Shown here one piece after another: positions 2,324 to 25,475 of a DNA stretch of 25,754 bases. The DNA is from a virus: positions 1 to 25,754 of IMG/VR virus record IMGVR_UViG_3300025122_000135, one strand, 5' to 3'. The notes under the pieces are model-generated. The model was not told the origin of the DNA. It worked only from the letters and a program-made list of their open reading frames with translations, and ran no database searches. A program made the position numbers and the translations under genes. Each line of letters starts with the position of its first letter. The first letter of the stretch is position 1.

Positions 2324-3475
2324 ATGTCTTCATTATTAGAAGAAGCAATCGTAGATGCTAAAGCCCTTAAGGAAGCAGCACTTAAAAATGCTGAAAATAC
2401 CGTATTAGAGAAATATTCGGGTGAAGTAAGACGCGCCATCGACACTCTCTTAGAGCAGGATGACCTGGGACTAGGTCTAGAAGAGGACGCTGCCACCGAA
2501 GGCGCCGACGCTGATTTGATGGAGTTTGCCAAAGATGTTCCATACGGACATCAAGACGAGGCACTAGATGCCCCGGCCCAGGACGAGATTATTGAGATTG
2601 ACTTTAATGAGCTTAAGACGCGTCTTGAAGAAGAAGACGAAGTTGTGGGGCCTGACGACTTGATCGATGCGACTGCCTTGGCAGACGACATTGCTCTGGA
2701 AGAGAGCGGCGCGGAAGAAGTCGACCCTTCCGATCCCGTCGCCTCCGAAGAAGGAAACGAGGCTGAGTTGGCTGCCGGGGCACGGGAGAACGAAGACGAT
2801 TCCGGACCCGGACCCTCGACAATGTCCGAAGAACAAGACGATGACCTTAATCTTACCGAAGAGATGATCAGTGATCTTATTGAAGAACTGGTGTCCGAGA
2901 AAATCACCTTTGATGGTACTCCACGTCCGCAAGGCTGGTCGTCCCTTAACTCCGCCGACAATAGTGTTGAGCAAGCAAACAACGACGCCATGGCAGCGGC
3001 CCAAGCTGCCCTCCTCGACGAAGAGGAAGAAGAACTAGAAGAGGAGTCCACGGCACCTGATGTGATATCGGACGTGACACTCTATGAGACTAAGATCTCA
3101 AAACTTACAGAATCAACAAAAGAGTTACATTCTCTTTTGACTGAAGCCAAGAATCAGCTTACTAAGTTGAACTTGGCGAACGCCAAGCTTGTTTATCAAA
3201 ACAAGGCTTTGAATAGCGCCTCCTTGAATGAGCGACAAAAAGAACAAATTGTCGAAGCTGTTCAATCTGCCAATTCTGTTGAAGAAGCGAGCATGATTTT
3301 TGAAACAATTCAAAACGCAGTGGGGGCCCCGAAAGATCATCGGATACGCCCACAGACACTTCGTGAAGCGGTTCAAAGACCTACGTCGCTTTTACTCAAC
3401 TCTAAGAAAAACAACGAGGCAACATATGATCCTAAAATGGATCGTATGCTGCGTTTAGCAGGTTTGAATAAATGA
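2324..3475 (+). CDS. Prohead core scaffolding protein (gp22-like)
   Basis: A 383-residue, very acidic protein directly upstream of the major capsid gene, the position of the T4 prohead core protein gp22. Residues 1-45 are helical and Ala/Leu/Glu-rich; about 45-245 are dominated by Asp and Glu with Ser and Pro; about 253-335 form a likely coiled coil containing NLANAKLVYQNKAL and SLNERQKEQIVEA, a pattern I associate with T4-type scaffold proteins. The C-terminus is a short basic-hydrophobic helix (MDRMLRLAGLNK) that could contact the capsid shell. The role would be an internal scaffold for capsid assembly, later degraded by the prohead protease. No protease gene lies in the window. The start has a GGAG site 8 bases upstream. 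Confidence 0.75.
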   Translation: MSSLLEEAIVDAKALKEAALKNAENTVLEKYSGEVRRAIDTLLEQDDLGLGLEEDAATEGADADLMEFAKDVPYGHQDEALDAPAQDEIIEIDFNELKTRLEEEDEVVGPDDLIDATALADDIALEESGAEEVDPSDPVASEEGNEAELAAGARENEDDSGPGPSTMSEEQDDDLNLTEEMISDLIEELVSEKITFDGTPRPQGWSSLNSADNSVEQANNDAMAAAQAALLDEEEEELEEESTAPDVISDVTLYETKISKLTESTKELHSLLTEAKNQLTKLNLANAKLVYQNKALNSASLNERQKEQIVEAVQSANSVEEASMIFETIQNAVGAPKDHRIRPQTLREAVQRPTSLLLNSKKNNEATYDPKMDRMLRLAGLNK

Positions 3476-3510
3476 CATTCAATTATTACAATTATAAGGA
3501 GGTTATATAA

Positions 3511-5286
3511 ATGTCTATTGTACAGAAATTAACAGAAGGCATCGTTAACCGTGATCTTTCTTCGGAAGGCTCTGCCCTCATTGCAAAATGGGAACAGACC
3601 GGTCTTCTGGAGGGTCTCGGTTCCGATGATTCTAAAAACGGTATGGCTCGATTGCTTGAAAATCAGGCAAAAGAGCTTCTCCGTGAGTCCAGTTCCATGG
3701 CCGCAGGCGGGGATGTTGAGGGCTTTGCAGCCGTCGCGTTCCCACTCGTCCGTCGTGTATTCGGCTCCTTGATCGCTAACGAACTTGTTAGTGTTCAGCC
3801 GATGAGTCTCCCCTCGGGACTTATCTTCTTCCTCGACTTCACCTATGGTGGTGTTGTAGAGGATACGACAACCGCTCGACTCGGATTCGAGGTTGGTAAA
3901 TCAGTGTATGGTGGCGACGTTGTCGGTGCCCAGATCACTGGTGGTGTTGATCTAAGTGGTCACGATGGCGAAGATGCTGGTGGTGTGTATAACTTACGCA
4001 ACGGCTACTCTTCTCCAACGGGATCGGCTGCGACAAGCCCCGCCTGCGACATCTCTGGTAACATTGATGGCGGCGGCGCTGTTGGTGACAACGCTCTCTC
4101 CAATGGCTGGACCTCAGCTATCGGCGGTGGCGGACTCACCGCACAGTACATCAGTGCTCAGATGCTGAAGTATGATCCTGATCTTACTTCGGGCTCTAGC
4201 TTTGCTGTTTTAACACAGGACCTTTCGTCCACACAGTTCAACTATGATGACCTTGTTGGCATCGATGCTCAGTGGACCACAGCGCTCAACCCTGACAATG
4301 ACATTCAGATTATTCGTCGACTGTCTTCATTAAGTAAGTCCTCTGATCTGTCGACCACATCTGATGGTATCGTCCGTATCGTCGCTGTTGGTACTGGTTC
4401 GGCCGCACAGGTCGGCGCAGCACTTAATGCTGCAACGCTGACGTATCCCATCGTGGACAACTTCGGTGGCAACACTACAGGTAACCCAATTGGTGCGGTT
4501 CTGCCGGCTACCACGTGGGGACTTGAAGGTGCTGATAACATCCCCGAGATCGACATCAAGGTCGATTCCGTGGCTGTCACTGCAATGACCAAGAAGCTCA
4601 AGGCCAAGTGGACCCCAGAGTTAGGACAGGATCTTAACGCTTACCACAACCTTGACGCTGAGGTTGAGCTGACTCAGATTCTTTCTGAGCAGATTGCTCT
4701 TGAGATTGATCAGGAGATCCTTGAGGACCTCGTTAAGGGTTCGACGGCCGGAGTTCGCTTCTGGTCTCGCAACCCCGGCGATTTCCTTAATCGTACGACT
4801 GGCGCTGCCAACTCTTCGCCTGAGTTCACCGGTAACGTGTCTGAGTGGTATGAGACCCTCGTTGAGACTATCAACGATGTCTCCGCTCTGATTCACCGTA
4901 AGACTCTGCGTGGTGCTGCTAACTTTGTGGTGTGTTCACCTGAAGTTGCTAACTTGCTTGAGTTCACTGCTGGCTTCCGTGCCAACGTGACTGCTGATAG
5001 CGATCGTGGTGACATCGGTGCTGTTAAGGTCGGTTCGCTTTCGAAGAAGTTCGACGTTATGGTCGATCCTTACTTCCCGCGTAACATCATTTTGGTGGGA
5101 CGTCGTGGTAGTAGTTTCCTCGAGAGTGGTTATGTGTATGCACCCTATGTGCCGCTGCAGACCACACCTACGATCTTCGGTGTTGAAGATTTCGTGCCCC
5201 GTAAGGGAGTCATGACTCGATACGCCAAGAAGATGGTTCGCCCGGATATGTATGGCTTAGTTGTCGTTAAGGCTCTGAACGAATAA
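3511..5286 (+). CDS. gp23: Major capsid protein (gp23-like)
   Basis: A 591-residue protein with the hallmark of T4-type capsid proteins: an N-terminal segment SALIAKWEQTGLLEGL (about residues 21-36), MARLLENQA (45-53), then AFPLVRRVFG (76-85), IANELVSVQPMSLPSG (88-103) and FFLDF. It forms the hexameric capsid shell. In T4 the prohead protease removes about 65 N-terminal residues; a candidate site here is after Glu70 in DVE/G, with LLE/G at 32-35 as an alternative closer to the known consensus. The start ATG follows a strong AAGGAGG site. The gene is followed within 26 bases by a strong terminator, as expected for a very highly expressed gene. At 591 residues it is somewhat longer than T4 gp23 (521), with extra Gly/Ser-rich segments around residues 150-220. 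Confidence 0.95.
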   Translation: MSIVQKLTEGIVNRDLSSEGSALIAKWEQTGLLEGLGSDDSKNGMARLLENQAKELLRESSSMAAGGDVEGFAAVAFPLVRRVFGSLIANELVSVQPMSLPSGLIFFLDFTYGGVVEDTTTARLGFEVGKSVYGGDVVGAQITGGVDLSGHDGEDAGGVYNLRNGYSSPTGSAATSPACDISGNIDGGGAVGDNALSNGWTSAIGGGGLTAQYISAQMLKYDPDLTSGSSFAVLTQDLSSTQFNYDDLVGIDAQWTTALNPDNDIQIIRRLSSLSKSSDLSTTSDGIVRIVAVGTGSAAQVGAALNAATLTYPIVDNFGGNTTGNPIGAVLPATTWGLEGADNIPEIDIKVDSVAVTAMTKKLKAKWTPELGQDLNAYHNLDAEVELTQILSEQIALEIDQEILEDLVKGSTAGVRFWSRNPGDFLNRTTGAANSSPEFTGNVSEWYETLVETINDVSALIHRKTLRGAANFVVCSPEVANLLEFTAGFRANVTADSDRGDIGAVKVGSLSKKFDVMVDPYFPRNIILVGRRGSSFLESGYVYAPYVPLQTTPTIFGVEDFVPRKGVMTRYAKKMVRPDMYGLVVVKALNE

Positions 5287-10639: not shown

Positions 10640-11293
10640 ATGACATTTTGGAGTCAAGCATCATCGGAGCCGAAAAGACAACATAGATTTTTGCTGGAGT
10701 TGCCGCTGCTCGGCGCCGACAATAACACCCCCACGAGCAGAGTTTATCAACGCTATCTAGCAAAGACTGTCAGTAAACCTTCATACACCATAGGGGCGAC
10801 AGAACACAAGTTCCTTGGTAATACATACCACTACCCGGGCGCCGTTACATGGGACGAAGTATCCTGCACGATTGTTAACGCTGTCGATCCGAACGGTGAT
10901 GCAATGTTGTATAAAGCTCTTTATCAGTCCGGTTACTATGATCCGCAGGATCAGGAGGCCTTCTTCAACTCCTCGCCTACAGGGAAACCCGGTACTCCTA
11001 ATAAGGCAAACGCCCTGGCGACCCTTGGTGAAGTAAAGATTATTGAACTTAATGGTGCTGGGTATGCAATTGATGAATGGCAGCTGAACAACGCCTGGAT
11101 CTCAAGTGTTAAGTTTGGTGATCTAGACTATGCCGGCGAAGAATTACTTAATATTGAGATGACTTTCAGGTATGATTGGGCTACGTTCGGCCTCATCGGC
11201 GGTGCCGGCGAGGATGGACAGGCGGGTCTTTACAAGGACAAAGAAGCAATCCGGGCCCCGTCTTTTGGCCTCCAGCAACGCGGCGCGGAATAG
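10640..11293 (+). CDS. gp19: Tail tube protein (gp19-like)
   Basis: A 217-residue protein directly after the sheath gene, the T4 gene 18-19 order. It begins with MTFWSQASSEPKRQHRF, typical of tube proteins, and contains AKTVSKPSYTIGATEHKFLG, then PGAVTWDEVSCTIV, matching the tube fold in which strands precede a conserved Trp. The C-terminus (LLNIEMTFRYDWATF) is the usual closing strand. T4 gp19 is 163 residues; the extra length is mainly an insertion around residues 95-135 and a short tail. It polymerises into the rigid inner tube through which DNA passes. The AAGGAGA site lies 9 bases before the ATG. Confidence 0.88.
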   Translation: MTFWSQASSEPKRQHRFLLELPLLGADNNTPTSRVYQRYLAKTVSKPSYTIGATEHKFLGNTYHYPGAVTWDEVSCTIVNAVDPNGDAMLYKALYQSGYYDPQDQEAFFNSSPTGKPGTPNKANALATLGEVKIIELNGAGYAIDEWQLNNAWISSVKFGDLDYAGEELLNIEMTFRYDWATFGLIGGAGEDGQAGLYKDKEAIRAPSFGLQQRGAE

Positions 11294-11336: not shown

Positions 11337-12200
11337 GTGAGTAGAAGGAATAACTTGGAGCGCTCAGGCGCCGCAGACAAAGATGCGGCACCACCTCCAA
11401 CAGCTGTTACACAGCAAGATGGGGGTGATATATTTTCATTTATAACCCCTACAGAATTTGTTGACCTCCCCAGTCAGGGGCTCCGATATCCAGAGCGACA
11501 CCCTCTGCATAAGATAGCGACGATTGAAATTCGTCACATGACTGCTAAAGAAGAAGATATTTTAACTTCCGAGTCCTTGATTAAGAAGGGCATTGCTTTG
11601 GATAGACTGGTACAAGCAGTTGTCGTTGATAAAAGTATTAAGCCAGAAGATCTGTTGATTGGGGACAAGAATGCTGTCCTAATAGCAGCCCGAATAACTG
11701 GTTTTGGATCCCAGTATCATACAAGTCTTACTTGTCCGTCTTGTACAACAATAAACGAAACAACCTTAGACCTGGATGACCTCCAGAGTAAAGAACTCAC
11801 TGATCTTCCTGAAAATGTTACCGCAACAGAAGAAGGAAATTATGTAATTACGCTTCCCGATTTTAATGATCTAGAAGTGGAAGTCAGATTGCTTACGGGC
11901 CATGATGAAAGATTCATTATGAAAAAAAGAGAAAAGCGCCGCAAGCTTAAACTCGCCGACACCAATGTTACAGATCAATTAACGGCCATTATTGCCAGAG
12001 TAAACGAGATTACCGACCCCGCATTGCTAGCGCAATTTTCAGAACAGGTTCCAACTCGAGTTTCTCGCGAAATTCGGAACACCTATGAAGAGCTAGTCCC
12101 GGACTTGGATATGACGTTTGGCTTTGAGTGCGATAATTGCGGCCACGTGGGTAAGGTGGGTATGCCTATTACGGCGGACTTTTTTTGGCCTGACATCTAA
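11337..12200 (+). CDS. gp26: gp26-like baseplate / tail-assembly protein with zinc-ribbon cysteines
   Basis: A 287-residue protein with a GTG start preceded by AGAAGG. It matches the T4 baseplate (gp26) family pattern: FVDLPSQGLRYPERHPLH (about 39-57), then IRHMTAKEEDILTSESLIKKG and VDKSIKPEDLLIGDKNA, then Cys133-x-x-Cys136 and Cys265-x-x-Cys268, which probably bind zinc. The C-terminus ends in ADFFWPDI. T4 gp26 (208 residues) is needed for hub assembly. Here the gene lies between the tail tube and tape measure genes, the usual place of tail-assembly chaperones. Its last codons contain a run of seven T and a second open frame continues from there, so a longer frameshifted product of about 348 residues is likely. 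Confidence 0.85.
   Translation: MSRRNNLERSGAADKDAAPPPTAVTQQDGGDIFSFITPTEFVDLPSQGLRYPERHPLHKIATIEIRHMTAKEEDILTSESLIKKGIALDRLVQAVVVDKSIKPEDLLIGDKNAVLIAARITGFGSQYHTSLTCPSCTTINETTLDLDDLQSKELTDLPENVTATEEGNYVITLPDFNDLEVEVRLLTGHDERFIMKKREKRRKLKLADTNVTDQLTAIIARVNEITDPALLAQFSEQVPTRVSREIRNTYEELVPDLDMTFGFECDNCGHVGKVGMPITADFFWPDI
12180..12189 (+). other. Candidate programmed frameshift site (T7 run, TTT-TGG-C)
   Basis: Codons TTT TTT TGG at 12180-12188 include a run of seven T. A +1 slip of the TTT at 12183-12185 to 12184-12186 keeps perfect pairing and puts GGC next, entering the downstream frame; a -2 slip could reach the same frame. The zero frame stops at 12198-12200. Confidence 0.6.
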
Positions 12201-12384
12201 GTACCAAGAAGGTGTTTATGAAGAACTTTTTGTTCTAAAACACCATGGCGGCTGGTCTATTTTCGAGGCATACAACTTGCCTACCCAGCTGCGCAGATGG
12301 TTTGTTCAGCGCCTGATAAAAGAGTTCGAAAATCAGAACAAAGAAATGGAAAAAGCATCCAAGGCCAATAGTAGAAAAGGTTAG
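12187..12384 (+). CDS. Downstream frame, likely frameshift extension of the gp26-like protein
   Basis: A 65-residue reading frame in the +1 frame relative to the gp26-like gene. Its sequence looks coding: YEELFVLKHHGGWSIFEAYN, then LRRWFVQRLIKEFE and a Lys/Glu-rich end, a compact amphipathic helical pattern. There is no ATG or GTG start after the slip site, and the only upstream start is a TTG at 12118 without a ribosome site, in a stretch where the other frame is clearly coding. The simplest reading is expression as a C-terminal extension through slippage at 12180-12188, as with the lambda G/GT-type tail chaperones that lie between tube and tape measure genes. Alternatives are a rarely used independent start, or a sequencing indel splitting one gene. 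Confidence 0.65.
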   Translation, partial: GLTSKYQEGVYEELFVLKHHGGWSIFEAYNLPTQLRRWFVQRLIKEFENQNKEMEKASKANSRKG

Positions 12385-12392
12385 CTTTATAG

Positions 12393-12420
12393 AAAGCCGC
12401 TCGAAGGAGCGGCTTTTTTT
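12393..12420 (+). terminator. Rho-independent terminator after the gp26-like / frameshift gene
   Basis: Ten-base arms AAAGCCGCTC and GAGCGGCTTT close a GAAG loop and are followed by a run of T (seven T in all from 12414). It is 9 bases past the stop of the downstream frame and separates it from the tape-measure unit. Confidence 0.88.
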
Positions 12421-12452: not shown

Positions 12453-12776
12453 ATGGAAAAAATGGTAATAGACTTAAGTGTGGGCTCGACCTCGGGAAAC
12501 CTAGAGGAAGGCGCAATTACTGCATTTGCAGCTGCCACACAGCAAATGCTTACACGAATGCTCCTTGCGGGCTTTGATGTACCGGTGAGTATACGAGGAA
12601 CTCAAAAACAAATCGATGCATTTTTCGGCGCGCTAAAGGGAGAAAAGCGTTATATGACCTCATACATGAAGCACGGTCTAGGCGATAACCGCACCATGCA
12701 AAACCAGCATACCCTAAACCGTTCCATCGCGGCCTTCGAAAATGAAACTGGCTTAAAGTGGCCATTTAAAAACTAG
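12453..12776 (+). CDS. Small hypothetical protein upstream of the tape measure gene
   Basis: A 107-residue protein with a GAGG site before its ATG. It has a Gly/Ser/Thr-rich start, an Ala-rich helix (EGAITAFAAATQQMLTRMLL), a strand-like FDVPVSIRGTQ, then DAFFGALKGEKRYMTSYMKH, ending with GLKWPFKN. No known motif is recognised. It stands alone between a terminator and the tape measure gene, 6 bases before that gene, so it is probably co-translated with it. In many tailed phages small chaperones precede the tape measure; this is a candidate, though virion structure or an unrelated role is equally possible. The mixture of helix and strand suggests a folded soluble domain rather than a leader peptide. 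Confidence 0.7.
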   Translation: MEKMVIDLSVGSTSGNLEEGAITAFAAATQQMLTRMLLAGFDVPVSIRGTQKQIDAFFGALKGEKRYMTSYMKHGLGDNRTMQNQHTLNRSIAAFENETGLKWPFKN

Positions 12777-12782
12777 GGTCGG

Positions 12783-15700
12783 GTGATGGAGGAAAAGCAA
12801 CTTCTCGAAGCCATCCTCGCGGAACTTAAAAAATCAACCGCCGGCGACGGCCTCGGCGGCGCCCGCGGCCCTTCGATGGATATCGGCGCGGCCTCACCTC
12901 GCTTTGATCAAGGAAAAGCTCAGGCCCAGATCGACTTTGCCAAAGAACACAAGGCAGAGATGGACGCTCAGATCGCTGCGGGAAAAGAGCTCGACTGGGT
13001 GCAACGCCAGCAATATGACTCCATCACTGCAATAAGCGAGGCCAACGCGGAAAATGTCGGAGAAGTAAAAGGACTTATAACGAATTATGTAAAGCTGGGC
13101 GACGAGATGAAGAAGGGCTCGATGAAAGCCAAAAACGCGACGTCGCAGATGTTCAAGCTCTCTGGCGCAGCCAACACCCTTAACGAGTTAGTCCCCACTA
13201 CTACGAAACAATGGATGTCTTTTGGTACTGAATTGGTTGAGGGTGCGAGGAGCGGCAAACTTTTTGTAGCCATGGCCGCAAAGCTCATCGGGACAATGAT
13301 CAATATCGCGGTGGCAACGGATAAGGCGACAGCCAGCTTTGCTGCATACAGCGGCGTAGTAGGCAACGGCAATCATCTCACCAGCAAATACGGGCAAATA
13401 CTGAGTAAAACGGAGCGCCAAGCTGCAGTCTTCGGTGCCACCCATGCCGATATCGCCGGCGTGCAGCAAGCGATGTTCGGTAATTATCAGAATTATACCA
13501 GCTTAAGTGGGGACCAAGCAATCGCGCTTGGAAAACAAACAGCTGCTTTGAAAAAACTCGGCGTCGCAGAGCAGCTCACCACTCAAATTTTCGATACTGC
13601 CACAAAATCATTAGGATACAATGACACCGAGCTGGTGGGGCTTACCCAAACTCTACACGACACTGCGGTCAGCATTGGAAAACCAACGGCACAGGTCGCC
13701 GCGGATTTCGCTGACGTTTCAAAGAAGCTTGCCTTCCACGGTACTAATGTTGTGGGAATTTTTCAGAACCTAGAGAAGCAATCTAAGGCGACGGGTCTCT
13801 CAGTCAGTGACCTAGTGGGAGTTTCAGGGGAAGCTTTTGATACATTTGATGGTGCCGCCGAAAAGGTGGGTCGCCTGAACGCAATACTGGGCGGACCATA
13901 CCTTAATTCTATTGACATGTTGAATGCTTCTGAAGATGAACGTCTTGAGATGATCAATGCGTCCATGGATGCCAGCGGTCAAATGTTCTCTGAGTTAGGA
14001 AAGTACGAGCAGAAAGCAATCGCGTCTGCCCTAGGGGTAGAGGTTGATGTTGCACGTAGAATGTTTGGAAACCTCTCAGCTGCCGAAGAAATTCAAATCA
14101 GGAAGCAGGAAGAAGTCGCCGAGACCGCGCGCAAAGCACAAGAAGTAATGGACAAACTAAAGAACGCCTTTTATAGTTTAGTTGTGGCCGTCAACAAACT
14201 GTTCGCGCCTTTCACATGGGCAGTCGAGAAATTCTCTCAATTCACTGCATGGCTGAATGAAGGCGACAGCGCAGCCAAGAAGGCATTCAAGTGGATTCTT
14301 AATCTCACCGTCCTTTTTGGCGGACTCTGGGGATCGCTGAAGATGGCAGGTAAAGCTATCGCGAAGCCCGCGCAAGCCCTCCGTAAACTAGGCGTGCACA
14401 TGCGCGTAGCCGGCGAATCCGGGGGCTTTCTTCATAAAACGGGAACGACTATCTTAAAACTTGGTCACCGCCTGGGGTCGATGGGAAGCGCGCTGCTTAA
14501 GCCATTTACTTTGATAGGAAAGGCATTTAGGCTGCTGCTTAAGCCGTTTACTTTGGTAGGAAAGGCATTTAGGGGAATTTTCCAGCTTTTTAGAGGAGGG
14601 TCGGCCGCCATGTCGGTCTTCATGTTATCCTTGCGCGCCGGCTTGGCCGCGGTTAAGACGGGCTTTGCTAGCTCAGGCGTCGGGATCCCCATATATCTTG
14701 CTATTGCTGCGGTCGAAACCCTGATCTTTAGTCTGAACAACTTGTGGGCCATTTTCAAGAGCGTTTTTAAGCTTATCGGAGGGATTGTCTCAGGCGACGG
14801 GGCCAAGATATCAGAAGCCTTTAATACCATTATGGAAAATATTGCTGAGATCTTCTATAAGGGTCTCAATGCTCTGACGTTTGGCCTTTTTGGGCTTATT
14901 GTTAAATGGGCCGGCGGCAAAGAGAAAATCTTAGAGATATTTAAGTCCCTCGCCACCAACGCTTTCATGCCTCTTATAATAGCCGTGAAAGTTGTGGGGT
15001 TGGTCTTCAAGGGGTTGTGGCTTGTTGCGAAGACCGTCTTTGGGGGAATTAAAAAACTTGTTGGCACTGTGATTTCAGCATTCAAGGGTGCCTTTGCACC
15101 CGTCATAGAAGCTTTTAAGGGAATCGGTGCCTCATTCGGGAAAGCGTGGGGCACCATCAAGGCGGCAATTCAACCGATTAAAGATGCGTTTGCTTCTATC
15201 GGCGCAGCATTCGCAAGCATGTTCGGCGGAGGCGGCGGCGGAGGCGGCTTTTTGGACGCGGTCTTTAGCGGCATAGAAGTGGCTTTTGGTTTTATAATGA
15301 AGGTGGTGTTGCTCCCCCTTAAGGCCGTCTTTGGACTTCTTGGTCTCGCCATTAAGGGTTTTGCAATACTGGTTCAAATTGCTCTAACCCCCATTGTATG
15401 GCTTTTTAAGGGCATCGGCCTCGCCATAGAAGTCATGGCCAAGATAATTAAATTTGCTCTGTCCCCTGTTGTAGCAATCTTCAAGTTCATCAAGTTCATT
15501 ATAGAGGGAGTAGCGAAGACGTTCGAGTTCCTCGGCAAGGTGATAATGTCACCAGTTACTTTCATCCAGAAGATGTTCAACATGCTCCCAAAATGGATCG
15601 TCAAACGAGCCGTGAGCGTCCTGGGCATCGGTGGAGGTACCAGCGATGCGACTGCCGATGTACCAGGCGAAAAAGTCGACGATGTTATTATTACTGCCAG

Positions 15701-16046
15701 CGGAAAGCTAATTAAGCCACATCAGAAAGATACCATAATCGCCACCAAGCCAGGCGGAGTCCTGATGAAGAATCAAGAAAAACAACAAGAGGGGTTCAGC
15801 CAAATGTCGTCTATGGCCGGGAAGGTATTCGGCGCGAGTCCTCTTGGGATGCTCCTCAAGGCCGGCTCCGGAATGGCTGGAATGGCCGGGAAAGCGCTCG
15901 GAGGCGGACCGGACGGTGAACAAGGTCCTCCAAATGTAAAAGTAGATGTTAACGTTAAAATTGGTGAAAAACAATTAACCGACATCATTATAGAGGCGTT
16001 ATCATCGCCGGAGGCTGGAAAGGCAATATCGCCTTTCTTAAACTAG
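12783..16046 (+). CDS. Tape measure protein
   Basis: A 1087-residue protein and the longest of the tail-length candidates, placed after tube and chaperone-like genes. Residues 1-160 are helical and charged; about 160-460 are Ala-rich helical; about 500-960 hold many hydrophobic stretches with regularly spaced Lys (for example IYLAIAAVETLIFSLNNLWA near 635-655, and a dense series from about 835 to 930), typical of tape measures that enter the host membrane. A poly-Gly run lies near 814. The C-terminus has VDDVIITASGKLIKPHQKDT and VKVDVNVKIGEKQL, a common tape-measure ending. No lysozyme or peptidase motif is seen. GTG 12783 and ATG 12786 are adjacent possible starts; ATG may be the real one. 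It would set tail length and be ejected with the DNA. Confidence 0.88.
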   Translation: MMEEKQLLEAILAELKKSTAGDGLGGARGPSMDIGAASPRFDQGKAQAQIDFAKEHKAEMDAQIAAGKELDWVQRQQYDSITAISEANAENVGEVKGLITNYVKLGDEMKKGSMKAKNATSQMFKLSGAANTLNELVPTTTKQWMSFGTELVEGARSGKLFVAMAAKLIGTMINIAVATDKATASFAAYSGVVGNGNHLTSKYGQILSKTERQAAVFGATHADIAGVQQAMFGNYQNYTSLSGDQAIALGKQTAALKKLGVAEQLTTQIFDTATKSLGYNDTELVGLTQTLHDTAVSIGKPTAQVAADFADVSKKLAFHGTNVVGIFQNLEKQSKATGLSVSDLVGVSGEAFDTFDGAAEKVGRLNAILGGPYLNSIDMLNASEDERLEMINASMDASGQMFSELGKYEQKAIASALGVEVDVARRMFGNLSAAEEIQIRKQEEVAETARKAQEVMDKLKNAFYSLVVAVNKLFAPFTWAVEKFSQFTAWLNEGDSAAKKAFKWILNLTVLFGGLWGSLKMAGKAIAKPAQALRKLGVHMRVAGESGGFLHKTGTTILKLGHRLGSMGSALLKPFTLIGKAFRLLLKPFTLVGKAFRGIFQLFRGGSAAMSVFMLSLRAGLAAVKTGFASSGVGIPIYLAIAAVETLIFSLNNLWAIFKSVFKLIGGIVSGDGAKISEAFNTIMENIAEIFYKGLNALTFGLFGLIVKWAGGKEKILEIFKSLATNAFMPLIIAVKVVGLVFKGLWLVAKTVFGGIKKLVGTVISAFKGAFAPVIEAFKGIGASFGKAWGTIKAAIQPIKDAFASIGAAFASMFGGGGGGGGFLDAVFSGIEVAFGFIMKVVLLPLKAVFGLLGLAIKGFAILVQIALTPIVWLFKGIGLAIEVMAKIIKFALSPVVAIFKFIKFIIEGVAKTFEFLGKVIMSPVTFIQKMFNMLPKWIVKRAVSVLGIGGGTSDATADVPGEKVDDVIITASGKLIKPHQKDTIIATKPGGVLMKNQEKQQEGFSQMSSMAGKVFGASPLGMLLKAGSGMAGMAGKALGGGPDGEQGPPNVKVDVNVKIGEKQLTDIIIEALSSPEAGKAISPFLN
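14493..14573 (+). repeat. 42-base tandem duplication inside the tape measure gene
   Basis: Two copies of a unit beginning CTGCTTAAGCC repeat with a 42-base period, encoding LLKPFTLIGKAFRL and LLKPFTLVGKAFRG. Only a few substitutions separate the copies, so the duplication is recent. It adds exactly 14 residues in frame. Confidence 0.9.
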
Positions 16047-17243: not shown

Positions 17244-20200
17244 ATGTCAGTTGTTAGTTTCAATTGGGGCAACACCGCCTATTATAAAATCGACCAACGC
17301 GTGGGCATTATGTCAGCGGACGCCGCGGACGGTGGCTCTGGCATTCCCGCCACCCGAGCCCGGGCAAGACAGTTTGCTCTCTCGGACCTTGCTGGTCTGC
17401 GCGCGCCTAACTATCAGGGATCAGCTGACAACATATGGCATCCCGAAGAGCTGGAGATCGTGGAAGAGGACACCGGCGCCTTGGCCCAATCGACCGGCTA
17501 CTATAATGTTACTTATCGCATCCCTAGGCTAGCTGCTGATGCGGCTTCTCAGCAGCCCCATGTCCTTAATAACGAACTCCGACCTGTGCCGATCCCCGAG
17601 CCCACCGGTGCAGACAACAAAGCTGCCATCGTGGCTAACTGCCCTGACCGCGCAGCATTCGCTATTCATGATGGTAAATACAAAGTTACTGTCGTAGTCG
17701 ACAACGCAGACAGTTCTTCGCATAAGAAGGCGTGGGCAGCCGCATGCCTGCAGATGGCCAACGCCTTCGCTCCGGAACGCGCCCCCGGGAACCACGTGGA
17801 AGCTTTCCACGGCGACCCGGAGATTCCGAACGGCACATATGTGGGCACTCCCGGATCCCCCGGAGTCTTTATCGACGCAAACGACAACGCGCTGCTCTCC
17901 TCGTTTTCTGCGACCGGGATTCACGGCTTCGACGTCGCCGGCGGATCCTGCCGGTTGCCCGAAACCACAACGGACGGCAAGGGGTGGAGCCAAACAGGAA
18001 AGTATATTGCAACCTTCGCGGTTGGAGTGAACAATGTAATAACCGCAAATGTGATACCTGGAGACCCCGCGGCTGCAGCTGCAGGGGAAGACCCAAGCGA
18101 GACTGGACCAGCTGGAGAAGACCCAAGCGAGACTGGACCCGCCGGCGAAACCTCTCCGGACGCTCCCCCCTCCGCACCAGCAACTGCCAACCCTGACGCG
18201 CCGCCTGGTGTGGAAGAGAGCACAGGCAATTATATAATTACGGTTATAGTGCCGGAGGGTGAAGATCCAAAGGAAGCGGCAAAAGATCAGCTGGCGAAAT
18301 ATGTTACTGACTCCTCCCGTGCCCGGGCCTCTAACATCAACGTTGATGGTACCCTTGAACCGCTGAGTTCCGATCCGGCCGGCGGCAGCGGGGATGTTAA
18401 CGGGAAAAAAATTCTTATCATGGGTGACAGTCAGTGGCACGGAACCGCGCTGGGTAAAGCCGTCAAGGAGAGCCTCGAGGCTAAAGGCGCCGAGGTTCGA
18501 ACCTTGTGGAAATATGGCAAGGGAGCCGCAGTCGCTGCCAGCTACTGGGGGATCACAGTCAACAGCAGTACGGGCAACATCAGTGTAAGTTCTAGTGGAT
18601 TGCTGGGATCCATGCTCAGCAGTTTCAGTCCCGAGATTGTTATTATAGGTTTGGGTGGTAATGATTCGTACGGATGGAACAATAAGAAGGAAAAATATAA
18701 AAAAGTATTAGAGGGGTGGATTACTGCCTTTAAGGACGCAGGAGTTGAAGAAGTTCGCTGGCTAGGTCCCTCCTATGCTACCAATCTAATGTCTAACGGA
18801 CGGTCTTACGATACAATTCGTCAAAAGATCCGTGAACACCAGCAGGAATATCTGACCTCCTCCCCGGTCGCCGGGATACGAACTACTTGGACAGATACGG
18901 TCCCCCTCACCAGAGATCTCGAACGTAAAGATGATGGCGTCCACTATGTAAGAGGAGCGGCGGGTTATGAGGCGTGGGGAGAACTTATGACCTCCGAGTC
19001 CGGACCCCTCGGAGATTTGATGTCCGGTAGCGCTGCCGGCTCTACCCGCGTTCAATATGCAGTTCCAATCCAAAAGGTACAGGTAACGTCGAAGCCCCCC
19101 AAAGGAGGCACCGGATACGAACCACCACCAGCCGCGCCGCCTCCGGATGGCGAAGAGGAAGGCGACGACAGCACGAAGGCACCAGCAGAAATTAATTTAG
19201 AGCCCCTCGATTTCCAGTGTGTGTTGATGCAAAACATTCGTCAATTAGCAGCGAAGCATCAGTCTGTAGAATATCTTCATAACAAGCGACTTACTAGTGA
19301 TAATCCGGGCAACGTGTTGTCTATCATTAATCATGGAAACATGACAGATGAAGTGAGAGAGTTGCTCAGCATGTGTCCCGAAATATATGGATCGCTAACT
19401 CCATTTCTTAAGATCTGGCGCGTAGAATATGACGATAAGGGCAACGTATTAAAGAATTCTGATGGAACCCCTAAAGAGAAGGAGTTACGAATTCCTAACT
19501 TTGTTTCTGAACATGATGTGGAAGATATTTTGGCCGGCCGACGGAGTAGAATTTCTGGTGCGGGGCTCAAAAGGTTTTCTTGGGAGCTAAAAGGTGTCCA
19601 GCCAGCCGAGGTGGATAACAACATCACGGCCAAGTTAGAAATCTATTTCCAATCAGTGGGAGATTTTTTTGGAGGAGCCGAGCAAGCCGGCGGAAACGTT
19701 CCTAACTTCTTAGATTTAATAATCAACTCCCCAGCCGTGCGAAAAGTAAAAGATAAAAGCGGCACGGGAAGCCAATCCCCCAGCGGCAAGCCGCGAAAAT
19801 GCGGAGGCGGCGCAGCTGCCTCTAACCAATATGACGGAGCAAACTTTAGAATTAAAGTGTGTGCCGGGTGGGCTGCCCCGGAAGATATGGAAAGCATGTT
19901 CCCCACAATGCCGCCAGCTAAAATTAAGCTTCTGCGGGAAGCCGTCATGGCTTCGCGAGCTTCCTTGTTTTTGCAACAGGTGCGCCACAATATTCAATTT
20001 AATGAAAACGGCTCACTACTGTTAAGCATTGACTATCATGCGGCTCTGACCGGCATGCTCCGCGGCACCTCGGCCGATATATTTGCCGACGGCAAGCAAA
20101 AGGATGACATTAAAAAGCTTCGCGACGACAAGCGCAACAATGATCAAGAAGCCGCCGATGAAGATACCAGCGACGACAAGAAGAAGGAGCTCGACTCGGA

Positions 20201-21791
20201 TACGGACGATTTGCTGAAAAAGATTGATAAACTTGAACAAGCCGATAAACTACAAAAGTATAGAATGCTTCTCAAAGGACTCTTTGCTAGTGATAAAGTT
20301 ATGATTTTGGAACTCCCGGCCGCAGAGGTGTATACGAAGGGTATCGATGATATGACTCACGAAGAGAGAGTTAAATTTGCTCGTGAACGGCAGTCTTCGA
20401 CGTATCTCTCTGGCGAGAAACTCCGAGGAGGCGCCTTCGAATCTTCAACTCTCGATGCCCTCTCCGACGAGGACGACCTCGAGGACGCGGCAAAAAAGGC
20501 CGACAAAGCTGGGTCAAAGAAGGCGAAGCAGGCGACGAAGAAAGTCAGAAAAGCGAAGAAGAAGGACACAGTTGAAATTCCGTTTATGTATCTGGGAGAT
20601 ATCCTTGATAATGTAATAAACCAAATTAGAACCAACAACGCCGCCCCCCTTAACTTTGCATTTTTTGTTTCTGAAGTAGAACTAATCGATCCCTTGGTAG
20701 CATATCAGGTTAAAGATTTTGCTGACTACGCGGCATGCGGAAACGTAAAAGATACTTATGTCTTAAATGCCATGGAAGCGGCCACTCCCGGTATTACGTT
20801 GAAGGGCTCCGAAGGACTCCTATTAGAGATAAATATTGGTGACATTCCTATCTCCTTGGATGCATTCCAGAAGTGGTTTACTGATAAGGTAATTAAAAAG
20901 AGTCTTGATCACTACTATTTTTTGAATTTCATCAAGGATATTAGCTCACAGCTTATTTCCAATTCTCTTAAATCTCGCTGTTTCGGTAAAAAATATAAAT
21001 TTTTTCAACGATTTGATGCACAGCCAATAAACCTAGGCGGCGCCGCCGAGTTGAAGCCGAAGAAGCTTGTCTCGGACAAAAAGTTAGCTAGTTACAAGAG
21101 AAAGCTCACGTGCGAATCGTCTGCTGGCGAGAGCCTGCTGTCCATTGTATTGATGTCAACTGATACTAAACCAAAATCTTTACGAGGAGACTTTGAACAA
21201 GATTTAGAAAACGGTATTTATCATAACTACATTGGATCTTCGTGCGGACTGGTTAAAAAGATTAATTTTAATCGCGAAGATATGCCTTATATGCGGGAAT
21301 CTAAAATACAAAAACAGGGCGCCCTAGGTGCTGCTCAGCTGAGAGAATTATATTCTGTGGACGTTGATCTAGTGGGAAACAATCTCTACCGCAACGGGTC
21401 TTACATCTATGTCAGCCCTCTTTTGCTGGATACGACCATGGCCGAATTAGAGTTTTTGGGTTTGCATGGATATTATATGGTGACTAGTGTAGGCTCTGAG
21501 GTGACCGAGACATCCTTCACCACAAAGATTAAGGCCCTCCACGAAGGGGTGAAATTCCAGACCACCAAGTTGGGGTCGACCACTCAACCAGCCGCAACCC
21601 CCGAGCCGTCGGATAATCCAGAAAAAGAAAAGGACGATCAGACCGCGCCCCCGCCGGCGACCACTGGCCCGTCGACTAATCCACCTGAGAGTGAATCGAC
21701 TCCCCTCGAACAGATTAATGCTGGCTTGAAGGCGGCAGGGAAGCCACCAATCACCAAAGAGCAAGCGAAGGCTCTGCAGGGGCTGCTCTAA
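17244..21791 (+). CDS. Giant baseplate hub-like protein with embedded SGNH/GDSL hydrolase domain
   Basis: A 1515-residue protein. Residues 1-350 carry four GxY strand-start repeats (about 84, 143, 251, 327) and a Pro/Glu/Ala linker with a tandem repeat. Residues about 388-585 form an SGNH hydrolase: GDS with Ser396 in MGDSQWHG, the GGND block with Asn473, and Asp564-x-x-His567 in DDGVHYV, all catalytic blocks in the right order and spacing. After a Pro-rich linker, residues from 650 on form a long hub-like region with LPFLKIW-type strands, a Lys/Glu-rich coiled stretch (about 948-1110), GDILDNVINQI, and IPISLDAFQKWF, ending in a Pro/Thr-rich tail. Its position with baseplate genes suggests a hub or tail-tip protein that carries an envelope-degrading esterase, analogous to the lysozyme domain in T4 gp5. 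The substrate is unknown. Confidence 0.75.
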   Translation: MSVVSFNWGNTAYYKIDQRVGIMSADAADGGSGIPATRARARQFALSDLAGLRAPNYQGSADNIWHPEELEIVEEDTGALAQSTGYYNVTYRIPRLAADAASQQPHVLNNELRPVPIPEPTGADNKAAIVANCPDRAAFAIHDGKYKVTVVVDNADSSSHKKAWAAACLQMANAFAPERAPGNHVEAFHGDPEIPNGTYVGTPGSPGVFIDANDNALLSSFSATGIHGFDVAGGSCRLPETTTDGKGWSQTGKYIATFAVGVNNVITANVIPGDPAAAAAGEDPSETGPAGEDPSETGPAGETSPDAPPSAPATANPDAPPGVEESTGNYIITVIVPEGEDPKEAAKDQLAKYVTDSSRARASNINVDGTLEPLSSDPAGGSGDVNGKKILIMGDSQWHGTALGKAVKESLEAKGAEVRTLWKYGKGAAVAASYWGITVNSSTGNISVSSSGLLGSMLSSFSPEIVIIGLGGNDSYGWNNKKEKYKKVLEGWITAFKDAGVEEVRWLGPSYATNLMSNGRSYDTIRQKIREHQQEYLTSSPVAGIRTTWTDTVPLTRDLERKDDGVHYVRGAAGYEAWGELMTSESGPLGDLMSGSAAGSTRVQYAVPIQKVQVTSKPPKGGTGYEPPPAAPPPDGEEEGDDSTKAPAEINLEPLDFQCVLMQNIRQLAAKHQSVEYLHNKRLTSDNPGNVLSIINHGNMTDEVRELLSMCPEIYGSLTPFLKIWRVEYDDKGNVLKNSDGTPKEKELRIPNFVSEHDVEDILAGRRSRISGAGLKRFSWELKGVQPAEVDNNITAKLEIYFQSVGDFFGGAEQAGGNVPNFLDLIINSPAVRKVKDKSGTGSQSPSGKPRKCGGGAAASNQYDGANFRIKVCAGWAAPEDMESMFPTMPPAKIKLLREAVMASRASLFLQQVRHNIQFNENGSLLLSIDYHAALTGMLRGTSADIFADGKQKDDIKKLRDDKRNNDQEAADEDTSDDKKKELDSDTDDLLKKIDKLEQADKLQKYRMLLKGLFASDKVMILELPAAEVYTKGIDDMTHEERVKFARERQSSTYLSGEKLRGGAFESSTLDALSDEDDLEDAAKKADKAGSKKAKQATKKVRKAKKKDTVEIPFMYLGDILDNVINQIRTNNAAPLNFAFFVSEVELIDPLVAYQVKDFADYAACGNVKDTYVLNAMEAATPGITLKGSEGLLLEINIGDIPISLDAFQKWFTDKVIKKSLDHYYFLNFIKDISSQLISNSLKSRCFGKKYKFFQRFDAQPINLGGAAELKPKKLVSDKKLASYKRKLTCESSAGESLLSIVLMSTDTKPKSLRGDFEQDLENGIYHNYIGSSCGLVKKINFNREDMPYMRESKIQKQGALGAAQLRELYSVDVDLVGNNLYRNGSYIYVSPLLLDTTMAELEFLGLHGYYMVTSVGSEVTETSFTTKIKALHEGVKFQTTKLGSTTQPAATPEPSDNPEKEKDDQTAPPPATTGPSTNPPESESTPLEQINAGLKAAGKPPITKEQAKALQGLL
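18087..18146 (+). repeat. 30-base tandem repeat in the hub-like gene linker
   Basis: Two nearly identical 30-base units beginning GAAGACCCAAGCGAG encode EDPSETGPAG twice. They lie in the Pro/Glu-rich linker just upstream of the SGNH domain, suggesting a flexible spacer whose length can vary. Confidence 0.9.
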
Positions 21792-24310: not shown

Positions 24311-24624
24311 AGAAGATCTATCAAAAGTTAATCAGGGATCGTATCCCTGGAGTGATTGCAGACGCAGGCAAGTCCTTTGCCACAAGAAAAGCATCAGAAA
24401 CAGAGCTGATGGGCTACGCTATGAAGAAGCTTCAAGAGGAAGTGCAAGAATTTATCGAAGAACCCAGCGCAGAAGAGGCTGGCGACATTATGGAGATCTT
24501 TCATTTTATCTGCGATAAACTAGAGATCAAAGATCTTACGATTGAGGCCGAGCAGACCGCAAAGCGTGTTTCACGCGGCGGATTCGACAAGGGTCTCATT
24601 TTGGAGTGGGTTGAAGAGGAATGA
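24307..24624 (+). CDS. MazG-like nucleotide pyrophosphohydrolase
   Basis: A 105-residue protein of the MazG/phosphoribosyl-ATP pyrophosphohydrolase superfamily. It begins YQKLIRDRIPGVI (from residue 5), as in short MazG-like proteins, and has the metal-binding pattern Glu44-Glu45-x-x-Glu48 (EEVQEF) and Glu57-x-x-Asp60 (EAGD), then a helix with IFHFICD and a final RGGFDKGLILEWVEEE. Such enzymes hydrolyse nucleoside triphosphates to monophosphates and pyrophosphate, cleaning modified nucleotides or changing the nucleotide pool; phages often carry them. It overlaps both neighbours by 4 bases (ATGA-type), so it is translated as part of the polymerase operon. The substrate cannot be read from the sequence. 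Confidence 0.85.
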   Translation: MKKIYQKLIRDRIPGVIADAGKSFATRKASETELMGYAMKKLQEEVQEFIEEPSAEEAGDIMEIFHFICDKLEIKDLTIEAEQTAKRVSRGGFDKGLILEWVEEE

Positions 24625-25475
24625 AAGTAGTTGGTCTCGGCAACGCCGGCTGCAAGCTGGCCAAAGCATTTTCTAAATTTCCTCAATATGAGGCGATTAG
24701 TATCGATGTTCATAAGGATGCCACAATAACAATTAAAAAAAGAAACTCTCATGAGGAATACGACACACACTTTCCTAATCTAAAGAAGAAGCTACGTTTT
24801 TCTAACGAGGATGTGTTGGTGGTTACTGCCGGCGCGGGACAGATATCAGGAGGCATCCTTCGCCTCCTTGAACAACTAAAGAATAATAGAGTGTCATTGT
24901 TATACATTCAGTCAGACCTCTCGCTCATCAGCGAGGTCCAGAAGCGCCAAGATAAAATAGTAAAAAATATTTTACAAGAGTATGCTCGTAGTGGCCTCTT
25001 AGAAATGATATATCTAATAGATGATCTCCGAGTACAGCAGAGTATAGGAGAAATGTCTATCATTGGATACTATGATACCATCAATCAGGCGATTGTAAAC
25101 ACGCTTCATATGGTAAATATTTTCAAACATAGCGAGCCCATCATAGGCAATTTTATAAATCCATCGGAGATTAGTCGAATTGCTACATTTGGAGTAGCGA
25201 ACCTGGATGAAGACGGCGCCCAAGAAAATTGGTTTTACCCCTTGACAAACGTTCGTGACATGGTATACTACTATGGTATTAATGAGGAAGACCTAAAGAA
25301 TGATGGAACGCTTTTTCGGAAGATTACAGACTTCGTGAAGTCCAAAGCGACAAGCGGTGTTAGTGTATCGTACGGAATATATCAGACCACCTATGATCAG
25401 AAATATTGTTATTGCATTCAGTATTCATCTGTGGTACAATCATATACAGAACTAGACGATCAAGAGATTAGTTGA
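24621..25475 (+). CDS. Divergent tubulin/FtsZ-like GTPase-fold protein
   Basis: A 284-residue protein with the layout of FtsZ and tubulins. Residues 1-11 (MKVVGLGNAGC) match the first nucleotide loop. VLVVTAGAGQISGG (65-78) aligns with the Gly-rich T4 loop, but with fewer glycines than GGGTGTG. After a strand (VSLLYIQSD) come helices and a DDLRV segment at 134-138 in place of the FtsZ asparagine-Asp loop, and a long helix YYDTINQAIVNTLHMV. GNFINPSEIS (166-175) aligns with the T7 loop; the usual catalytic aspartates seem replaced by Ser. It is shorter than FtsZ (about 320-380) and lacks a clear C-terminal tail. It may form filaments, cap host FtsZ, or be a non-hydrolysing relative; function is unknown. 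It overlaps the MazG-like gene by 4 bases. Confidence 0.65.
   Translation: MKVVGLGNAGCKLAKAFSKFPQYEAISIDVHKDATITIKKRNSHEEYDTHFPNLKKKLRFSNEDVLVVTAGAGQISGGILRLLEQLKNNRVSLLYIQSDLSLISEVQKRQDKIVKNILQEYARSGLLEMIYLIDDLRVQQSIGEMSIIGYYDTINQAIVNTLHMVNIFKHSEPIIGNFINPSEISRIATFGVANLDEDGAQENWFYPLTNVRDMVYYYGINEEDLKNDGTLFRKITDFVKSKATSGVSVSYGIYQTTYDQKYCYCIQYSSVVQSYTELDDQEIS

Follow-up and report, generated by a model that had tools for sequence, protein, structure and literature searches.

The gp26-like gene of this virus and the reading frame that overlaps its end very probably encode the tail-assembly chaperone of a T4-like, contractile-tailed phage, with a short form (TAC-N) and a long form (TAC-NC) that would arise by +1 slippage of the ribosome near the end of the gp26-like frame. 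The locus lies in a 25,754-nucleotide stretch of viral DNA (IMG/VR record IMGVR_UViG_3300025122_000135, positions 1 to 25,754), which was analyzed as a whole and is called the window here. The features of the locus and its surroundings are as follows.

10640 to 11293, plus strand: tail tube protein, directly upstream of TAC-N (phrog_4542 tail tube, E 5e-22)
11337 to 12200, plus strand: TAC-N, the short form, a gp26-like protein of 287 aa with a GTG start codon and its stop codon at 12198-12200 (PF12322, phrog_150)
12180 to 12189, plus strand: slip site TTT TTT TGG C, where Phe-tRNA on TTT would move +1 to TTT, with GGC as the next codon
12187 to 12384, plus strand: TAC-C, the C-terminal domain in the +1 frame, 65 aa past the junction, without an ATG or GTG of its own
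11337 to 12384, plus strand: TAC-NC, the predicted long fusion of 348 aa, 11337-12185 joined to 12187-12384, as would follow from a +1 shift
12391 to 12418, plus strand: terminator-like hairpin with a T tail, directly 3' of the TAC-C stop
12453 to 12776, plus strand: 107-aa ORF that separates the chaperone gene from the tape-measure gene, with no Pfam or PHROG match of note
12783 to 16046, plus strand: likely tape-measure protein, 1087 aa, so assigned from its length and position (phrog_58 tape measure, weak, E 0.55; phrog_17020, E 5e-7)

In frame 0, the gp26-like gene ends with GAC TTT TTT TGG CCT GAC ATC TAA, and the seven consecutive T occupy positions 12180-12186. The +1 frame reads TTT TTT GGC CTG and continues to a stop at 12382-12384. 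These coordinates and codons confirm what an earlier, sequence-only reading of the window had described, namely a gp26-like frame that closes just past a run of seven T and a +1 frame that runs on for 65 residues. No ATG or GTG was found when the +1 frame was scanned for starts; its only start-like codons are TTG, two of them far upstream (12118 and 12124) and one deep inside the conserved domain. The position of the gene agrees with the same reading, since it is flanked by the tail tube gene on the 5' side and by the likely tape-measure gene on the 3' side, with the 107-aa ORF intervening.

The downstream +1 frame is under purifying selection. Among 54 non-redundant close relatives, the C-domain read in this frame had a mean pN of 0.24 and a mean pS of 0.83, a ratio of 0.29 (0.13 for close pairs), whereas the two alternative frames of this stretch gave pN/pS values of 1.02 and 1.84; per sequence, they contained 2.9 and 5.7 stops. 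Because the pN/pS values and stop counts of the relatives are frame-specific, the +1-frame stretch downstream of the gp26-like ORF is confirmed as a genuine coding feature, beyond chance.

Codon choice in the overlap is similarly constrained. The nine bases TTT TGG CCT are invariant in all 54 of these relatives. The second Phe codon is TTT in 54 of 54, against a usage of 74% elsewhere, and the Pro codon past TGG is CCT in 54 of 54, against a usage of 22%. CCT is fixed because the Pro and Leu codons overlap there, as expected if both frames are read. Three codons ahead of the first Phe codon, Thr is written ACG in 43 of 47 sequences (16% usage), and synonymous codon choice at 12171-12179, immediately 5' of the slip site, is strongly biased among members of the window's clade (ACG GCA GAG/GAC; the window itself has ACG GCG GAC), a bias that makes a +1-frame TGA in many relatives. 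RNA structure around the slip site, followed to 126 nt downstream, stayed at the level of the shuffled background (mean z about 0), nor could a stimulator resembling a Shine-Dalgarno sequence be recognized. Stimulatory RNA structure is common with +1 frameshifting, yet it is not required.

The N-terminal part (11337-12200) matched PF12322 (T4_baseplate) with an E value of 3e-15, over the cut-off, and phrog_150 ("baseplate hub") with 1e-15. The TAC-N family profile scored both gp26 and gp51 of T4, which fits gp51 as a gp26-like protein extended at its C-terminus. The C-domain profile matched the C-domains of cyanophages P-SSM2 and S-PM2 (HMM E 2e-5 at Z=1000; hhalign probability 92%); its match to Caulobacter phage Cr30 was weaker, and the C-terminus of T4 gp51 aligned weakly. 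TAC-C scored 17.9 bits against PF20546 (DUF6760), under the Pfam gathering cut-off of 27, and weakly matched phrog_634 (baseplate hub assembly catalyst family). A bacterial search with PF20546 and PF12322 for the same arrangement in extracellular contractile injection systems returned nothing useful. Comparison among the relatives supports the overlap, selection on both frames, the slip-site rule given below and the homology to the T4-like chaperones.

An AlphaFold2 model of the short form was made from a TAC-N-only alignment; a mixed alignment, in which short fragments looked misaligned, was dropped. The model had a pLDDT of 90 and a pTM of 0.83 and was good from about residue 39 on, the first 38 residues being poorly predicted. 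In the model of the fusion, for which the alignment rows were the relatives' plain unshifted translations, the C-domain was predicted to be helical, with block-mean pLDDT values of about 70-96. A Foldseek search of TAC-N against the PDB gave no significant match. The HK97 tail-assembly chaperone (2OB9) had the top probability among the PDB matches listed (0.44, with E 0.92 and a target TM score of 0.45), which is no more than suggestive of an HK97 chaperone fold in the TAC-N model.

The pair could also be a structural component of the baseplate hub and not a chaperone, as the Pfam and PHROG names of the N-part ("baseplate", "hub") would imply; older T4 genetics, as recounted in a T4 review (PMC3004832), placed gp26 in the hub. 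We consider this reading unlikely. The same review (PMC3004832) names both gp26 and gp51 among the hub-assembly chaperones, papers citing Vladimirov et al. (2022) describe short and long chaperone genes of T4-like phages, and the position and frameshift pattern seen here are those of lambda-type chaperones. The suggestion of the sequence-only reading that a gp26-family protein serves as a tail chaperone with short and long forms agrees with where the gene lies, with its relatives and with the literature; as a new idea it does not stand, because the pair was, according to papers citing that work, identified in T4-like phages by Vladimirov, Gautam & Davidson (2022, Virology 566:9-15).

A downstream domain was detectable in 148 distinct loci. 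It lies in the +1 frame in 145 of them, which are distinct junctions with identical ones removed, many related to one another and not independent events, and in the -1 frame with its own ATG in the other 3. All 80 close relatives in IMG/VR (48-99% identity over the gp26-like part) keep the overlap in the same +1 frame. The same layout was found in Microcystis phage Mel-JY01, Flavobacterium phage immuto, an uncultured 484-kb phage, Bacillus phage SP-15, Listeria phage LIS04 and Streptococcus phage GXN1. About 110 further loci came from scans with immuto and the 484-kb phage and from one genome scan, and the scans matched hundreds more loci beyond the 145 distinct ones. Collection scans with the SP-15 and RM378 queries each matched the query itself only, the multi-family alignment was too diverse to be used as a query for such scans, and a DNA-level search of phage records gave no match. 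In RM378, the site is TTT TTT TGG and the +1 frame is open; the C-domain profile did not recognize its C-domain. In Xanthomonas phage XacN1 (positions 3001-3995), the gp26-like gene is followed by a short ORF, for which a -1 slip at TTT TTT ATT and a start at its own ATG are both possible, and this phage was kept out of the frame classes.

Among the 145 distinct +1 loci, the site reads TTT TTT TGG CCT in 94, TTT CTT TGG CCT in 28, TTC TTT TGG CCT in 14 and TTT CTA TGG CCT in 3; TTT CTA TTC, TTT TTT AGT, TTT TTT CAC, TTC TTT CGT (in GXN1), TTT TTT TTC and TTT CTT TAC occur once each. The overlap contains UUU followed by U or C (UUU_Y, a frame-0 TTT and then a pyrimidine) in every one of them. 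Therefore, a Phe-tRNA, which reads both UUU and UUC, can move +1 at all sites with its pairing intact. The sequence-only reading had proposed looking in homologues for both the overlapping frame and the T run. The frame is shared (145 of 148); within the site, 48 of the 145 have no run longer than four T, and UUU_Y is kept in all. A programmed +1 frameshift that joins the gp26-like gene to the downstream frame, as had been proposed, is the best explanation of this conservation, of the selection and of the UUU_Y rule.

The direction of the slip had been given as +1 or -2. A -2 shift, which would leave one extra Phe at the junction and is known in phage Mu (PMC5009743), also re-pairs fully at TTT TTT TGG. 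However, at TTC TTT TGG, found in 14 distinct loci, it would put the Phe-tRNA on TCT, and the CTA TGG, CTA TTC and TTC TTT CGT sites misfit it as well, whereas a +1 slip at UUU_Y fits 145 of 145. TTC TTT TGG and TTT CTA TGG re-pair fully only in +1; the +1 alternative is thus retained, and -2 is quite improbable.

It is very improbable that the C-domain is made separately, from a non-AUG or distant start coupled at the gp26 stop. Three loci (L004, L194 and L199) do carry it as a separate ORF, in the -1 frame and with its own ATG at the gp26 stop. Against a separate start, the overlap is free of ATG, GTG and TTG in 80 of the 145 loci (of ATG and GTG in 107), many members of the window's clade have a +1-frame stop (TGA in TTGACGGCA) shortly ahead of the slip site, and the conserved peptide of the C-domain begins at the junction. 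RNA-polymerase slippage, which would produce a mixed mRNA pool and could be invited by the seven T of the window, is extremely improbable, as the arrangement is kept in the 48 loci whose sites (TTT CTT TGG, TTC TTT TGG and TTT CTA TGG among them) lack a run of more than four T. Finally, a homopolymer is a typical place for indels, but a sequencing indel or a decaying gene is refuted by the purifying selection in the +1 frame and by the recurrence of one and the same +1 offset in 145 distinct loci, which come from many projects and include named phage genomes.

The loci with a separate C-domain gene also bear on the history of the +1 frameshift. When a tree was built from the gp26-like part with the final eight codons excluded, L194 grouped with L199 as its sister (support 100), nested in the TTT CTT TGG clade. 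Their sites read TTC TTG TAT and TTC CTT TGG CCA; UUU_Y is gone, and the C-domain starts from an ATG. We interpret this as a derived loss of the slip site and gain of a start codon inside a frameshifting clade. The sequence-only reading had counted independent starts in relatives as evidence against frameshifting. They do not refute it, because they occur in three loci only, two of which are derived within the clade and have lost the slip site. Three changes among the decoding modes (-1, +1 and separate) suffice on the tree, which is a quick one with some long deep branches of unsure placement.

A chaperone pair made by frameshifting has already been described for T4-like phages; the shift in this group appears to be +1, as opposed to -1 in the cyanophage and Caulobacter relatives checked. 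The locus shares with the T4-like TAC-N/TAC-NC pairs the combination of a gp26-like N-domain with a helical C-domain, the occurrence of short and long forms, and a place near the tube and tape-measure genes. T4 differs in that its long form has a gene of its own, 51, and taken by itself the match of the C-domain to gp51 is weak. The abstract of the 2022 chaperone paper reportedly has T4 using genes 26 and 51 and other groups using frameshifting. P-SSM2 and S-PM2 have a similar C-domain, encoded directly behind the gp26-like gene in a frame that overlaps it, and Cr30 has an overlapping C-domain frame with a weaker match; unlike here, the frame in all three is -1, at TTT TTC or TTT TTT C sites, and in P-SSM2 and S-PM2 it follows TTT TTC. 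Papers citing the 2022 work report a short gene with a longer fusion gene in some T4-like phages (PMC10885494) and polyT -1 signals in others (PMC12846349), and a 2016 recoding review (PMC5009743) still treated conserved tail-chaperone frameshifting as a rule to which T4 was the exception.

Lambda gpG/gpGT (and Mu) likewise have a short and a frameshifted long chaperone between the tube and tape-measure genes. However, no sequence homology to them was detected, and their shifts are -1 in lambda and -2 in Mu instead of +1. With respect to the slip itself, there is a likeness to the UCC_UUU_CGU site of influenza PA-X, at which the P-site tRNA on UUU slips +1 to the overlapping UUY; the TTC TTT CGT site of GXN1 is similar to it. 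At the RF2 site CUU_UGA, the P-site tRNA on CUU slips +1 onto the overlapping UUY. The genes of both systems are unrelated to the present one, and the A-site codon here is mostly UGG (Trp), versus CGU or a stop.

We infer slippage itself, its efficiency and the tail-assembly roles as follows. The majority of ribosomes would end at the normal stop and give the short TAC-N. On some ribosomes, the Phe-tRNA on UUU would re-pair +1 with the overlapping UUU (UUY in relatives) before TGG, and reading on in the +1 frame would add the 65-residue helical TAC-C to give TAC-NC. On the model of lambda gpG/gpGT and T4 gp26/gp51, the tape-measure protein may be coated by many copies of the short form and few of the long one, and the C-domain may recruit tail tube subunits.

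A wider proposal, for and against which we find the case evenly balanced, is that UUU_Y acts as a structure-free +1 signal kept throughout a large section of the T4-like chaperone family whose members are mostly uncultivated, with -1 shifts or separate genes elsewhere and several switches of mode; the ACG GCA GAG/GAC element may be stimulatory in the window's clade. In the searchable literature, where the 2022 chaperone paper is represented by the papers citing it, we found no description of a +1 shift with the UUU_Y rule across the group, nor of a derived slip-site loss together with the gain of a start codon. One related chaperone pair would have arrived at three solutions, -1, +1 and separate genes, and the distinct +1 loci are a large natural data set from which the requirements of a bacterial +1 slip site could be learned. 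In annotations of such phages, the C-domain is missed or named as a separate hypothetical protein.

Several other features of the window were observed. A 284-aa ORF (24621-25475) has a start (MKVVGLGNAGCKLAK, VTAGAGQISGG) that looks tubulin/FtsZ-like by eye, and a Pfam search with it gave no match. The 1515-aa protein at 17244-21791 has a GDSL/SGNH-hydrolase-like stretch at about residues 390-570, under the Pfam cut-off. A hairpin similar to that at 12391-12418 was present in 16 of 54 relatives, the closest included, and in 0 of 54 in a control stretch. On its 3' side, many relatives carry AACTATTTATTG.TGAGG, a possible late-promoter motif, and the first ten bases of this motif have an exact second copy at window position 2281.
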